Below, one piece after another: positions 9,111-15,210 of a DNA stretch of 20,165 nt. Every line of letters begins with the position of its first letter. Position 1 is the stretch's first letter. The stretch covers positions 1 to 20,165 of the IMG/VR virus record IMGVR_UViG_3300032087_002061, one strand, 5' to 3'. The notes under the pieces were generated by a model. The model saw only the letters and a program-made list of their open reading frames with translations, had not been told where the DNA came from and ran no database searches. This stretch comes from a virus. The translations under genes were made by a program, and so were the position numbers.

Positions 9111-9794
9111 TCATTTATTGTACAGCGCAGACCACCTTGCGACCTGATCCAGGTTCATCGGTGGGGTGCGTCCAGAGCGCAGCGCATCCTTGGTCATCGA
9201 CACAGTGGCATCACGCACCTGATCGACTGTAACTCCTTGATCGTAAAGGACTTTTGCGTGTCTGAAACTCTGATCTGGCAGCCGACTGACGCCAGATGTG
9301 GCCTCGACCGCCTTCTTGAATGCGTGTGCGAGTATCTGATAGTCAGTGTTTGAATCCCCTTGAACCCCTGTCTGCATATTTGTTTCGGCTGGCTTTATCT
9401 CTTCATCAGGATCGTCAGAGATAATGCGTGACGGTGCCCAGAACTGTTCGTTGGTTGGGATTGGATCGTTACCTTCCCACAACACCTGGTATCGATTCAC
9501 CTTACCTCGACTACGCCGCTTGATGTGCTTCGGATACGGCCTCGGCTCAAGCAAGCGCACGTAGCCCAGCTCCTTGAGTATTCTCATGGTCCTGCATACC
9601 CAGACGCGGCCTACGCCTAAGTGACGCGCTATCGTCGTCTGAGAAGGCCAACACACGCCGTAACTGTTCGTATACATACCTAGACACGCCAGGATCTTTA
9701 TATGCGGCCCAGTGAGTCTCTCGTCCTGCATAGCTCTCGCAGGGATGATCGAGTAGCGCCGAATGTTGGGCTTATCTTTAAAAGGGGATTTCAT
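9111..9794 (-). CDS. Helix-turn-helix replication protein, candidate initiator
   Basis: The protein is 227 residues. The N-terminal domain (about 8-95) has RYSIIPARAMQDERLTGPHI, then YGVCWPSQTTIARHLGVGRV and MRILKELGYVRLLE. This is a winged-helix fold of the HTH_36 or lambda O N-terminal type: S-Q-x-T-I-A-x-H-L-G is the recognition part and G-Y-V-R the wing. The C-terminal part (150-225) is helical, with LPDQSFRHAKVLYDQGVTVDQVRD, and resembles DnaD-like or helicase-loader tails. Such proteins usually bind the phage origin and load the helicase. Its first five codons are shared with the last codons of the upstream gene. The start is ATG at 9794. The initiator role is inferred. Confidence 0.7.
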   Translation of the reverse strand: MKSPFKDKPNIRRYSIIPARAMQDERLTGPHIKILACLGMYTNSYGVCWPSQTTIARHLGVGRVWVCRTMRILKELGYVRLLEPRPYPKHIKRRSRGKVNRYQVLWEGNDPIPTNEQFWAPSRIISDDPDEEIKPAETNMQTGVQGDSNTDYQILAHAFKKAVEATSGVSRLPDQSFRHAKVLYDQGVTVDQVRDATVSMTKDALRSGRTPPMNLDQVARWSALYNK

Positions 9795-10287
9795 CGTCTA
9801 CCTGTTCCTGGTTATGTTTGAACTGAATACTGGTTAGCTCGGCGCTGGGAAACTTGGCCTTGATCTCATTTGCTGTCTTCAATCCATCGGCCTCGATCAC
9901 TGTGACGATCTCTTCCAGCATGTACACCACCGGATCTTTGCCCTTCATCAACGGGATGACTCGCTGCATATCAAGACGATCATTCACAAAGTAATAGTTT
10001 CGTCCCGCAATCCTCGCTTGCAGATAAAAGACATCGCTCACCCCTCCCGCTTCACGGAGCTGGTTATCAATCGCCTTCAACCCTTTGACCAGATTCTCAC
10101 ACGCCTTGATCTTTTCATCAGGGTCACTGATCGTCAGATATCTCTCCCTGGCGTTCTGATACTTCGCCGCAATCTCAGGTGTGGTCATCTTGAACCAGGC
10201 ATACCAACCCCACTTCTTGTTCATCTCATTCTCGGCTACCATGAACGACTCAATAGCAGCTTGAACTTTCTTGCTCCACTCTCTCAT
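9778..10287 (-). CDS. Unknown replication-module protein with SSB-like C-terminal tip
   Basis: The protein is 169 residues. I do not recognise a family. The N-terminal two-thirds are helical and rich in Lys/Glu, with KWGWYAWFKM near residue 25 and a long helix around IKACENLVKGLKAIDNQLRE. The middle has YLQARIAGRNYYFVNDRLDM. The protein ends DDEIPF, nearly identical to the DDDIPF tip of bacterial SSB, which recruits helicase, primase, RecO, exonuclease I and others. There is no OB-fold pattern, so it is probably not an SSB. It lies between the helicase-primase and the helix-turn-helix protein, just past the CGGACA array. ATG at 10287 follows GAGG. A role in bringing host or phage replication proteins together is an inference. 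Confidence 0.65.
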   Translation of the reverse strand: MREWSKKVQAAIESFMVAENEMNKKWGWYAWFKMTTPEIAAKYQNARERYLTISDPDEKIKACENLVKGLKAIDNQLREAGGVSDVFYLQARIAGRNYYFVNDRLDMQRVIPLMKGKDPVVYMLEEIVTVIEADGLKTANEIKAKFPSAELTSIQFKHNQEQVDDEIPF

Positions 10288-10307
10288 CTTTCTACCTCGG
10301 ACGAACG

Positions 10308-10539
10308 CGGACAGGATTCGGACAGACGGACAGAACTATATGTTCTGTCCTGTCCGTCCGCGCCCCGTCCCTGTCGCACTTTTTGTCCGTCTGTTGTCCG
10401 CGCTTGTCCGCAATCCTCTACAACCCGCGTCATTGCTGGATTCCTTCGTTGTCCGTTTTGTCCGAATCGTGTCCGACCTTGTCCGTTTCCCGAATCCACT
10501 CGATTCTCTTGGAGTTGGCGCGGACAATGACAATGTCCG
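10308..10539. repeat. CGGACA/TGTCCG hexamer array (13 copies), iteron-like
   Basis: CGGACA occurs on the plus strand at 10308, 10319, 10327 and 10521, and its complement TGTCCG at 10351, 10384, 10395, 10405, 10450, 10459, 10470, 10480 and 10534. That is 13 exact copies in 232 bp, where about 0.1 is expected by chance. Many neighbours are 8-11 bp apart, so the sites lie on one face of the helix. Orientation switches at a perfect inverted repeat (10328-10350). The array covers the gap between the helicase-primase and the next gene and runs into the helicase-primase 3' end. This is what a multi-site operator or an origin iteron cluster looks like; the binding protein is unknown. Confidence 0.75.
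10328..10350. promoter_or_regulatory. Perfect inverted repeat at the centre of the hexamer array
   Basis: GGACAGAAC (10328-10336) and GTTCTGTCC (10342-10350) are perfect 9-bp arms around TATAT. The array copies to the left read CGGACA and most copies to the right read TGTCCG, so this is the symmetry point. There is no T-tract after it on either strand, so termination is unlikely. The AT-only centre flanked by binding-type repeats suits a dimeric protein site or a melting point. Confidence 0.6.
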
Positions 10540-12367
10540 CACTTTCGAGCGCCTCAATCGACCTCTTCCATGCCTTCCTTGCCCGATCTTTGAGACGCGG
10601 ATCACTGATATCCAGCTCCTCTTTTTCGGCCATCCAAAACACAAAACTATCTCTGGCAACCTCGACACTGATGACATCATTTCGGTCTGTTGCGTCGCGT
10701 AAACAATTCATCGCCTTGAGCTGAGTCTCATTGAGCGTCGTTTTACCGGCTGCAACTTCATCTGCCGTCAATCGCTTCAGATAAACAGAAGTCTCTCCGC
10801 CAATCGTGCCGACCTCCGCACTCTGCATCTCAAAGAAATAATCCTCTGCTGGCTCTGCGTCCTTTTGCTTCTCTGTGGTCACCGTAATCTGTGCGCCAGA
10901 CTTTTTGATCTGGATCGACGTATCTACGGCTCCGAGTAGTGCGCTTGATCCCCTCATACCCTTTGAGCCGTCCTTACCGCTGTGGTGTATGCCAATCAGC
11001 GCCGTGTTGTACGTTTGCTTGAGTACGTCGCATGACTTCACAAACTTGCCGATGTCCGTCGCTGAGTTTTCATCTGCGCCGAGCAATGCTCTTGCTACTG
11101 TGTCCACAACGATCAGGCTGAAGCCTCCAGCTCGCTCTTCAAGCACCTGTATGGTTGCCTTCAGCTTCTCGACCTCTGCCGGATTGGTGAAGTCCACAGC
11201 GGTCGGCAGGACGTGAAACGGTAGCTGCTTCTCATCAACCTTTGCGCCGCGATTCTCAATCCATGCCTTGACCCGCTTGCCGAGGCCTCCTACACCTTCT
11301 CCTGCGATGTAAAGCACTGCGCCTTGCTTGACCTCCATCTCATGAAACTGATGCCCTGTTGCGACGCAGAGAGCGACATCAAGAGCCAGGAACGTCTTAC
11401 CGCATCCTGGTGGCCCGTACATCACACTGAAGCCATGCTCTGTGAACAGACTGTCAACCAAAAACTTAATTGGTGGCATCGCCATCAGCTCACCAATCGC
11501 CATTGTCTTGAACGTCTCAATCTGGTCTGGCTCGATCTCTCCGGGGTCTGGCACTGGCTCTGTGATGAGCGCTGCCTTGTTCACCAGCGCAAAGAGCTGA
11601 TGCTTTGTTTTACCCGTGTCGAGCCAGTCAACGATGTCGCCCTTGGGCGGTAGTTGATCGCTGAGATCAAGTAACTTGATTTGGGATGCAACGCCGATCA
11701 GCGTGTTGATGACCTTCGCGCCGTGCTTCACACCCACTTCATCATTGTCCGGCATGACGACGACACGTCTACCCTTCAGCCACTTGCTGTGCGCCTCGGT
11801 CCATTGTCCACTACCGCCATTATTTGTAGTTGCCAACACACCGATCTCATTGAGTCTGTCGGCAGCCTTCTCACCCTCCACAATAAATACCGGCTTATCC
11901 TTGTGATGCAGGATGGCAGGAAGATGATACGGAATCCGGTCAATACCTTTGAGGTTTCTGATCCAACCTCCTTGACCATCCGGGCGTTGCTGACGAAACG
12001 TCTTACTGCCGTCTTGAAAGTCGGTACGTACCACCTGGTATTCCAGGACACCGTGATCTCCAATATAGTCGTACACCGTAATTTCATCTCTGTCTCGCTT
12101 CTGAAACTGTGGGTCTTTCTCCATGCCGAACTCACGCTCCAGTGCGTCGGCTATGTTGCCGTTGATCTGTGGCCTTGCGAGTTTGTACAAATCAACAAAA
12201 CCACCCGACTCGCCTGTCTCGTGGTCCTGAAAGACTCCTTTCTCTGTATCGACGCTCTTCGACCCGTGTGTGCCGAACCTGAGTTCGCTGCCGTGGGACA
12301 TCTTTTTATTTGGTTCGCCCCACAACTCTTTCGCAATCACGCCGATGTGTTCTGCGTATTTACTCAT
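10430..12367 (-). CDS. TOPRIM primase / RepA-type helicase fusion
   Basis: The protein is 645 residues with two enzyme parts. The N-terminal primase-like half has a TOPRIM domain with KPVFIVEGEKAADRL and, further on, RRVVVMPDNDEVGVKHGAK; the Glu and the D-N-D pair are the metal-binding residues. The second half is a RecA-fold ATPase of the RepA/AAA_25 type with Walker A VMYGPPGCGKTFLALD (near 320), Walker B SLIVVDTVARAL and a HHSGKDGSKGMRGSSALLGA sensor segment. It should prime and unwind DNA at the fork. I do not see an N-terminal zinc-binding domain. The last residues (after WIR) come from the hexamer array and read like a low-constraint tail. A terminator precedes the gene. Confidence 0.88.
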   Translation of the reverse strand: MSKYAEHIGVIAKELWGEPNKKMSHGSELRFGTHGSKSVDTEKGVFQDHETGESGGFVDLYKLARPQINGNIADALEREFGMEKDPQFQKRDRDEITVYDYIGDHGVLEYQVVRTDFQDGSKTFRQQRPDGQGGWIRNLKGIDRIPYHLPAILHHKDKPVFIVEGEKAADRLNEIGVLATTNNGGSGQWTEAHSKWLKGRRVVVMPDNDEVGVKHGAKVINTLIGVASQIKLLDLSDQLPPKGDIVDWLDTGKTKHQLFALVNKAALITEPVPDPGEIEPDQIETFKTMAIGELMAMPPIKFLVDSLFTEHGFSVMYGPPGCGKTFLALDVALCVATGHQFHEMEVKQGAVLYIAGEGVGGLGKRVKAWIENRGAKVDEKQLPFHVLPTAVDFTNPAEVEKLKATIQVLEERAGGFSLIVVDTVARALLGADENSATDIGKFVKSCDVLKQTYNTALIGIHHSGKDGSKGMRGSSALLGAVDTSIQIKKSGAQITVTTEKQKDAEPAEDYFFEMQSAEVGTIGGETSVYLKRLTADEVAAGKTTLNETQLKAMNCLRDATDRNDVISVEVARDSFVFWMAEKEELDISDPRLKDRARKAWKRSIEALESADIVIVRANSKRIEWIRETDKVGHDSDKTDNEGIQQ

Positions 12368-12377
12368 GTGTCACCCC

Positions 12378-12403
12378 AAAAAAATGCCCCCATTGCTGGG
12401 GGC
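12378..12403 (-). terminator. Rho-independent terminator/attenuator before the helicase-primase
   Basis: A perfect 7-bp stem, GCCCCCA (12386-12392) and TGGGGGC (12397-12403), with a TTGC loop, is followed on the minus strand by A and then seven T (12384-12378). It lies between the ssDNA-binding gene stop and the helicase-primase start, only about 10 nt from the latter. It should let the upstream two genes be transcribed more than the helicase. Confidence 0.85.
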
Positions 12404-13973: not shown

Positions 13974-14104
13974 TCGAGGCATTTGTTTTCGCTGTTGTGG
14001 TCGTTGCTGTGACCATAACATTCAGCGCGTTGGCTTACCTGGCTGACGTTTTACTGCGACGCAAGACCGGACGCGGGATCGTGCCAGAGGATTACTACAA
14101 ATGA
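13970..14104 (+). CDS. Single-pass small membrane protein (44 aa)
   Basis: Read from the DNA: it begins MIEAFVFAVVVVAVTITFSA and continues LAYLADVLLRRKTGRG, ending in EDYYK. Residues 3-27 form one clear membrane helix, followed by a positive patch (RRKTGR), so the N-terminus is probably outside and the C-terminus in the cytoplasm. It overlaps the previous gene and the methyltransferase start by ATGA junctions. No family is recognised. It could be an early membrane-acting factor such as a superinfection-exclusion or host-takeover protein, which is a guess. Confidence 0.65.
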   Translation: MIEAFVFAVVVVAVTITFSALAYLADVLLRRKTGRGIVPEDYYK

Positions 14105-15210
14105 GGTACGGCTCTGTCTGTTCTGGCGTTGAAGCTGCAAGCGTTGCATGGGAACCACTTGGATTTGACCCAGTATTCTTTTCTGAGATCGAGCCGTTTC
14201 CTTCGGCTGTTCTTTCACACCACTGGCCGTCGGTTCCAAACCACGGCGACATGACACAATTTGAAGGTTGGAATTATGAGCAAGGATCAATTGACATTCT
14301 GGTCGGGGGAACTCCCTGCCAGTCTTTCAGCGTGGCGGGGCTTAGAGGAGGCATCGCTGACTCAAGAGGGAACCTCGCACTCACTTATTGCAGGATGGTT
14401 GATCGATTGCGTCCTCGATGGTGCGTTTGGGAAAACGTGCCTGGTGTCTTGTCATCAGGAGGAGGACGGGACTTTGGCTCCATCCTCGGGGCGATGGCTC
14501 AACTCGGGTATAGCTGTGCGTGGCGAGTGTTGGACGCTAAGAACTTCGGAGTGCCACAAAGACGCAGAAGAGTGTTTCTTGTCGGATGTTCTTCAGGAGA
14601 CTGGCGAGATCCTGCCTCGGTACTATTTGAGTCCGGTTGCGGCGGCAGGGATTTTGAAAAGAGCAGAAAAGAGAAACAAGAGGATGCCAAAAGAACTAAA
14701 GGAAGCATTGCTTACGACAAGCAAAGGCTTGGTGAGTACGGGTCAGGGAATGTAGCAAGTACAATCGCTGCGAGAGATTATAAAGATGCAACTGATTTAG
14801 TGGTACACGCAAACAATGTAGCGCCATCAATCACTTCATCTGGTCCACCTTATTCTCGTACTGGTAATGAGCGTGTCGAGTGTGATGCGCTTGTAGTGCA
14901 GTCAAAATCAGTGCATGAAGATCAGCAAGCTGATGTTCGCTTGCAAGATTGTTTCAATGCGGTCACAACAGGTGGCGGCAAACCAGGGCAAGGGTATAGC
15001 TGTCTGTTCAACCCGAGCTCCAACTATAAAGTACGCCGCCTGACTCCAGTAGAAGCAGAGCGATTACAAGGATTCCCTGACGGGCACACCGACATCGGTT
15101 GGAAGGGTAAGCCGACACCTGACTCGCACCGTTACAAGGCGATGGGTAACTCAATGGCGGTGCCTGTGATGCGTTGGATAGGACAACGAATTAAGGAGCA
15201 TGACGCATGA
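14101..15210 (+). CDS. DNA (cytosine-5) methyltransferase
   Basis: The protein is 369 residues and all key C5-methyltransferase motifs are present in order: motif I SVCSGVEAAS (5-14), motif IV GGTPCQSFS (69-77) with catalytic Cys73, ENV (111-113, motif VI), QRRRRVFLV (153-161, motif VIII), RRLTPVEAERLQGFP (312-326, motif IX) and GNSMAVPV (349-356, motif X). The stretch between about 175 and 305 is the target-recognition region. It transfers a methyl group from S-adenosylmethionine to cytosine, probably protecting phage DNA from restriction. No cognate restriction enzyme is seen nearby, so it looks like an orphan phage enzyme. Codons 59-218 also encode a second protein in the +1 frame. Confidence 0.95.
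   Translation: MRYGSVCSGVEAASVAWEPLGFDPVFFSEIEPFPSAVLSHHWPSVPNHGDMTQFEGWNYEQGSIDILVGGTPCQSFSVAGLRGGIADSRGNLALTYCRMVDRLRPRWCVWENVPGVLSSGGGRDFGSILGAMAQLGYSCAWRVLDAKNFGVPQRRRRVFLVGCSSGDWRDPASVLFESGCGGRDFEKSRKEKQEDAKRTKGSIAYDKQRLGEYGSGNVASTIAARDYKDATDLVVHANNVAPSITSSGPPYSRTGNERVECDALVVQSKSVHEDQQADVRLQDCFNAVTTGGGKPGQGYSCLFNPSSNYKVRRLTPVEAERLQGFPDGHTDIGWKGKPTPDSHRYKAMGNSMAVPVMRWIGQRIKEHDA
14276..14755 (+). CDS. Overprinted gene inside the methyltransferase (159 aa)
   Basis: An ATG at 14276 with GAAGG 8 nt upstream opens a 159-residue frame, +1 relative to the methyltransferase and entirely inside it. It begins MSKDQLTFWSGELPASLSAW. Later parts read EDGTLAPSSGRWLNSGI, WTLRTSE, ETGEILPRYYLSP and AAAGILKRAEKRNKRMPKEL. 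I recall unassigned proteins in other phages with D-Q-L-T-F-W-S-x-E-x-P-A-S, D-G-T-L-x-P-S-S-x-x-W-x-N-S-G, S-L-S-D-x-L-E-T-G-D-x-P-x-R-Y-Y-L-S and G-I-L-R-R-A-E-K-R-G-K patterns, lying over or beside cytosine methyltransferases. This one matches closely, which random frame reading would not give. The C-terminal part may be a helical DNA- or protein-binding segment. Function unknown. Confidence 0.7.
   Translation: MSKDQLTFWSGELPASLSAWRGLEEASLTQEGTSHSLIAGWLIDCVLDGAFGKTCLVSCHQEEDGTLAPSSGRWLNSGIAVRGECWTLRTSECHKDAEECFLSDVLQETGEILPRYYLSPVAAAGILKRAEKRNKRMPKELKEALLTTSKGLVSTGQGM

Follow-up and report, generated by a model that had tools for sequence, protein, structure and literature searches.

A CGGACA repeat array at the 3′ end of a phage primase-helicase gene as a candidate iteron-type replication origin

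The repeat array and its surroundings

The window analysed here, 20,165 bp in length, is a whole IMG/VR virus record and possibly a genome fragment. A gene on its minus strand (10430..12367) encodes a 645-aa primase-helicase with a TOPRIM-like segment, an RSF1010-RepA-type helicase domain and a predicted C-terminal winged helix, as judged from Pfam, PDB profile and Foldseek matches. The RecA-fold helicase domain (residues ~293-467, 10967..11491, minus strand) was delimited with Pfam, where the protein matches AAA_25 (PF13481; E 4.5e-38, 131.3 bits against a gathering cut-off of 27). Among solved structures, RSF1010 RepA (1g8y) was the closest by profile comparison (E 3.9e-10), and the TOPRIM segment (residues ~162-223, 11699..11884, minus strand) matched PDB 2i5r (E 6.6e-4). 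By fold, Foldseek relates the protein to T7 gp4, Twinkle and RepA, the first two giving the best whole-length matches.

The C-terminal winged-helix domain (residues ~547-624, 10496..10729, minus strand) is predicted in two AlphaFold2 models, with helices at 547-558, 568-582 and 590-609 and strands at 613-615 and 622-624. The assignment comes from these models and from middling scores (Z 7-10) against the winged-helix domains of ORC, MukE/F and LexA, a common fold that indicates no function alone; a Foldseek search with this domain gave no match below E 0.001. Helix 590-609 (10541..10600, minus strand) is the predicted recognition helix and includes K598, whose codon lies at 10574..10576 on the same strand.

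The next gene after the array, also on the minus strand, encodes a 169-aa protein (9778..10287) with no Pfam or PHROG match. It is followed by the gene for a 227-aa HTH_36 protein (9111..9794, minus strand), which resembles phage replication-initiation proteins according to Pfam and PHROG and lies two genes from the array, the array itself being at the helicase gene. The record also carries a portal-like gene (PHROG head-tail adaptor), terminase-like genes (weak Pfam matches) and, on the other strand, a cytosine-5 DNA methyltransferase gene (14101-15210). A terminator-like hairpin with a T-run is found at 12386-12403 on the minus strand, between a 181-aa gene and the helicase gene. An Rfam scan of the window retrieved no RNA family.

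Thirteen copies of CGGACA/TGTCCG are located between positions 10308 and 10539. The plus-strand copies are at 10308, 10319, 10327 and 10521; the minus-strand copies are at 10351, 10384, 10395, 10405, 10450, 10459, 10470, 10480 and 10534. The shorter word GGACA/TGTCC occurs 14 times in the same interval. Since 11.5 copies of the hexamer are expected in the whole record (21 are present), about 0.13 would be expected per 232 bp. No other hexamer exceeds 7 copies per 232 bp anywhere in the window, and the top one, GGACAA, overlaps CGGACA. The maximum for CGGACA was 4 per 232 bp in 200 dinucleotide shuffles of the window and 3 in 2000 shuffles of the 232-bp stretch alone. A word scan of the window revealed no second distant repeat block. 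The initial annotation had counted the same thirteen copies, put the chance expectation at about 0.1 and described two runs spaced by 9-11 bp (10384/10395/10405 and 10450/10459/10470/10480), all of which was reproduced here.

The same annotation had placed the array beside a RepA-type helicase-primase. The type of helicase stands; the array, however, overlaps the gene rather than merely adjoining it, since six of the thirteen copies (10450..10539, minus-strand gene) are inside coding sequence, in the last primase-helicase codons. The other seven lie in the 142-bp gap 10288-10429, three of them 10-11 bp apart just past the stop codon (10384..10410, minus strand). Most of the gene-internal copies fall in the protein tail ETDKVGHDSDKTDNEGIQQ, a segment of low predicted confidence in AlphaFold2. 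Six copies in the terminal codons, most of them in a low-complexity tail, could make the array a by-product of this repetitive tail (TDK/SDK codons) or of another coding constraint. Such an origin for the repeats has a negligible probability, given that seven copies are non-coding, that copies occur on both strands and that many relatives have most, if not all, of their array past the stop codon.

An inverted-repeat scan identified the palindrome GGACAGAACATATAGTTCTGTCC at 10328..10350, with 9-bp arms and a 5-nt centre, which reads GGACAGAAC-ATATA-GTTCTGTCC and marks the point where the copies switch orientation. Copies 10308, 10319 and 10327 are on one side of it, and copy 10351 and all later ones are on the other. 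The orientation flip at a perfect inverted repeat, pointed out in the initial annotation, is thus real without being absolute, the pair 10521 (plus) and 10534 (minus) being divergent. An AT-rich unwinding stretch was sought at the array and not found, AT content being 41-46% in the array vs 48.5% for the record. Cumulative GC skew reaches its minimum at a junction of divergent gene blocks (13407), 3 kb away from the array, and so lends no support to the array as an origin; GC skew in the record mostly follows gene direction.

Relatives keep the position and change the word

A search for a DNA pattern of three spaced TTGTCCG words retrieved at least 119 viral stretches, in about 25 of which a homologous helicase gene ends at the cluster or close to it. 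Many of the pattern loci were period-11/12 runs inside reading frames with no helicase, and these were kept out of the evidence. Since this search selected on the repeat itself, relatives were then sampled by protein similarity only; an alignment of 14 diverse helicases (A1) proved too diverse for the locus search. In the first protein-sampled set of 118 non-redundant loci, 46% repeated a single hexamer at least six times within the 250 bp around the helicase stop, vs 1-3% in four control stretches. In a larger set, 122 of the 234 non-redundant relatives among the matches listed carried one and the same hexamer at least six times between −350 and +400 of the stop, roughly half of them having fewer than six; the control stretches gave 2/235 and 7/199. 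Sixteen of the 338 loci searched for this set had first been found by repeat or came from cultured phages or plasmids.

The repeated word varies by lineage. When words were grouped by average linkage (single linkage had chained unrelated words together), 41 word classes were obtained for 119 helicases, among them CGGACA, CGGGACA, CGTGACA, CGTTACA, ATCACA, TCGCACG, TGCAACC and GTAAGGT. Mapped on the tree of the catalytic core, these classes require at least 60 changes of word, or at least 38 if only classes with two or more members are counted.

The concerted nature of the change can be seen in L126, whose helicase is 66% identical to that of the window and whose eleven copies all read CGAACA. 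They are at −89, −77, −35, −25, −14, +30, +40, +51, +84, +108 and +115 relative to the stop. The corresponding offsets in L123, which has a helicase 100% identical to the window's, are −110, −97, −56, −46, −35, +19, +29, +40, +73, +97 and +105. The spacing agrees within each block and the word differs throughout. A relative with 63% identity (L128) has retained CGGACA at near-identical spacing, and one with 61% identity (L130) has CGCACA at different positions. The initial annotation had suggested looking in related phages for conserved spacing despite changed sequence, which is what L126 displays, and had regarded relatives lacking any repeat as evidence against its reading; the opposite was observed, with the array kept there and its word changed.

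Perfect inverted repeats with arms of at least 8 near the helicase stop were found in 57 of 123 arrays vs 6 of 107 controls, with a median centre at +68 in the relatives' arrays. Words in the majority and reverse orientation numbered 246:97 to the left of these palindromes, a figure that is partly so by construction because the left majority of an array defines the "same" orientation, and 64:118 to the right; it is the right-hand count, with its reversal, that carries information. Many palindrome centres in the relatives take the form CCCC-TATA-GGGG. L206, L209, L205, L172, L176, L203 and others have CCCC-TATA/TTAA-GGGG palindromes about +50 to +240 past the stop, together with unrelated words. 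The recurrence of this centre suggests an element independent of the array word.

Within the fetched stretches, 45 of 57 arrays had no gene for the HTH protein nearby and 36 of 57 had none for the 169-aa protein. The array goes with the helicase, not with its neighbours, across very different neighbourhoods. This bears on another reading, in which the repeats are a parS-like partition centromere or a packaging site. Some centromeres are short repeats about a helical turn apart that are bound by winged-helix proteins such as TubR, and TubR is among the weak Foldseek matches of the C-terminal domain. The constancy of the helicase gene in changing surroundings speaks against a site of this kind, as does the fact that no partition ATPase-type neighbour was recognised by Pfam or PHROG among the genes tested, and we regard it as very improbable.

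The layout is also present in cultured phages, including Rhizobium phage RHph_N65 (GCGGAGA, 12 copies), Idiomarinaceae phage 1N2-2 (GGTACA, 11), Alteromonas phage XX1924 (GGTTCA, 12) and Roseobacter phage CRP-406 (GCTGGA, 8). It is absent beside the related helicases of Microcystis phage Mae-JY30, Vibrio phage 1.210, Mycobacterium phage Wanda and Caulobacter phage GB2A. In L047, L054 and L077, CGGACA-type clusters lie not at the end of the helicase gene but some 550-630 bp further downstream, and the array can therefore sit one gene further on. At the contig end of L017 (positions 1-130), eleven GGACA copies follow each other at an almost exact 11-bp spacing, and no helicase is visible nearby.

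Covariation of the word with neighbouring proteins

Partial Mantel tests were used to relate the similarity of array words to the distance between proteins, taken in sliding windows; relatedness was corrected through catalytic-core distance only, and 300-1000 permutations were made. Under this correction, windows over the predicted recognition helix (residues 581-611) gave the strongest covariation with the array word, with partial r from −0.33 to −0.39 (p 0.003), vs about −0.11 for windows some thirty residues upstream and about 0 for TOPRIM. In the first set, the RecA domain was also correlated with the word, more weakly (r −0.19). When only DNA past the stop codon was considered, r was −0.39 (89 loci), so the covariation is not due to repeats overlapping codons. 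Linkage is likewise a poor explanation, since the gene for the 169-aa protein, which borders the array on its other side and served as a linkage control, does not covary with the word (r +0.15, 28 loci).

The initial annotation had named the products of 9111-9794, 9778-10287 and 10430-12367 as candidate binders. Covariation makes the C-terminus of the last of these, the helicase, the likely one; covariation and gene presence together led us to judge the HTH protein and the 169-aa protein unlikely. The HTH protein deserves separate attention, as the array could be an iteron origin bound by this protein in the manner of lambda O, with subsequent recruitment of the helicase. Lambda O does bind iterons, and both the HTH_36 domain and the replication-initiation proteins matched in PHROG are in line with such a role. 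Yet in 15 loci the partial r was −0.08 (p 0.20) for the HTH protein and −0.14 (p 0.08) for its HTH domain, vs −0.64 for the helicase C-terminal domain in the same loci, and, as noted above, most arrays have no such gene nearby. Recognition by the HTH protein is thus quite unlikely.

At the level of single residues, position 598 is K or R in 34 cases where G is the base 5′ of ACA/AAA, the exceptions with G being three near-identical CGTGACA loci with Q, a row that aligned poorly and a gap. With another base at this place, the residue is M, M, M, V, V or A in 6 of 7 aligned loci. A hand-computed Fisher test, a statistic that does not include relatedness, gave about 1.6e-4. In L308 the helix has N where L307 and others have R, and the word is CGGGAAA instead of CGGGACA. 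The relation between residue 598 and the word may represent a recognition code. A simple helix-word picture is contradicted by L269 and L281, whose C-terminal domains are 79% identical and whose words are very different; their specificity must therefore lie outside the aligned helix or elsewhere. Both of these loci have dense arrays at +20 to +260 past the stop (CGGGTACC and TTGCGGCCA, respectively).

A putative origin and its known counterparts

The array probably serves as an iteron-type replication origin, situated where the gene for its own initiator ends and bound by the C-terminus of the primase-helicase. The array, its kept position, the concerted change of its word, the winged-helix prediction and the covariation of word and helix were all obtained by computation. 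What we infer is binding, palindrome opening, helicase loading, priming and the start of replication at the array. In the proposed mechanism, the winged-helix domain would bind each CGGACA copy through helix 590-609, and copies about one helical turn apart would align several subunits on one face of the DNA. Inverted copies around the central palindrome would put the helicase on both sides of the point that opens; the helicase domain would then unwind the DNA, and the TOPRIM domain may prime.

The initial annotation had left the choice between an iteron origin and a cooperative operator. The first of these gains support from the comparison, in which relatives keep an array with a changed word. 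As an operator, the array would allow the helicase C-terminus or another protein to repress or time downstream transcription with no role as an origin. Operator arrays are common in phages, this one lies between genes of one operon-like block, and covariation with the helicase C-terminus reveals recognition, not its outcome. A purely regulatory operator is nevertheless unlikely. A promoter and terminator scan detected no promoter-like or terminator-like site within the array, the putative reader is a replicative primase-helicase, which points to replication, and the same layout in E. coli PICIs belongs to a tested rep-ori (PMC6092414).

Beyond this locus, we lean slightly towards a wider proposal: in many tailed phages, a T7-gp4-like primase-helicase would find its own origin with no separate initiator, the recognition helix of its C-terminal winged-helix domain (notably residue 598) would set the word, word and helix would have switched together repeatedly, and related replicons would be mutually blind. 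Were this the case, position alone, beside an easily recognised gene, would be enough to locate the origin in a large group of uncultured phages and in some plasmids. The reader is encoded next to the sequence it reads, and the two would have changed dozens of times; natural variants could therefore reveal the rule that relates helix residues to DNA words, which short DNA and a small domain would suffice to test. A layout described as unique to phage satellites would be extended to phages that stand alone and to another helicase family, and one would have to ask how a helicase of a type that is usually loaded onto single strands can start from double-stranded repeats.

As to known systems, T7 gp4 and Twinkle are the nearest whole-length counterparts by fold of the window protein, which differs from them in its additional C-terminal winged helix and the adjacent array; to our knowledge, T7 gp4 does not bind origin iterons. 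The helicase of phage P4 alpha belongs to SF3. P4 alpha and its ori/crr differ from the window in word and helicase family, and by the second distant repeat block not seen in the window. The resemblance lies in a single polypeptide that acts at repeats and unites primase and helicase with origin binding by a winged helix, as described for P4 alpha in PMC4234260. RSF1010, whose RepA is the solved structure closest in sequence to the window's helicase domain, uses three separate proteins, of which RepC binds the iterons (PMC4234260); compared with RepA/RepB/RepC, the one protein of the window appears to carry all three roles. The pRN1 origin is 3′ of its primase-helicase (PMC4234260). In SCCmec, the C-terminal domain of Cch2 binds short AAGTG iterons downstream of its own gene (PMC7581432), with the differences that its helicase is D5-type, the iterons are three, the primase is separate and the element is not a phage.

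The initial annotation knew of no named system with this hexamer, whereas a Rep-ori of such a kind exists in SaPIs and PICIs (PMC6092414, PMC7581432), with EcCICFT073 and SaPIbov1 as examples. PICI origins are directly 3′ of the initiator gene and consist of two sets of short iterons around an AT-rich region; a plasmid is maintained by the EcCICFT073 rep-ori, and this maintenance fails when rep is missing and is poorer when ori is missing (PMC6092414). The C-terminal domains of SaPI Rep and Cch2 recognise iterons directly downstream (PMC7581432). At the EcCICFT073 locus of CFT073 we found an array of GGTAGA (11 copies) 3′ of the D5-type rep gene, and other E. coli rep genes in the same setting have GGTGAA (10 copies, D5), GGGTTA (10, DUF927) and AAGTGGG (7, AAA_25). 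Arrays thus accompany all 4 E. coli rep genes of this setting that were examined, one of them AAA_25 like the window's. In the E. coli loci L298, L304, L305 and L306, a DUF4222 gene is followed, always at the same place, by a rep gene of the AAA_25, D5 or DUF927 family, and each of these rep genes has an iteron word of its own on its 3′ side.

The window array is likewise immediately 3′ of its putative initiator gene, at the helicase stop (10308-10539), and its iteron blocks flank the ATATA-centred palindrome, with AT content below the record mean. It differs in that an AT-rich stretch between the iteron sets is absent, in the portal-like and terminase-like genes of the record and in the protein, which is of the TOPRIM and RepA/T7-gp4 type, whereas Rep of EcCICFT073 belongs to the D5 type and a further E. 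coli allele to the DUF927 type. Lacking the AT-rich region and having the appearance of a stand-alone phage, the window is not classed here as a PICI module. The iteron-origin reading, with the helicase itself as the likely reader, is well supported by comparison, and the array would work like a SaPI/PICI Rep-ori. The open-access literature yielded nothing direct on the CGGACA repeat or on such helicases with adjacent iterons. The Rep-ori layout is known mostly with other helicase families, and here it accompanies a T7-gp4/RSF1010-RepA-type helicase in stand-alone tailed phages. What appears to be new is the occurrence of this helicase family outside satellites, the spread of the layout across tailed phages, and the finding that word and recognition helix have repeatedly switched together.
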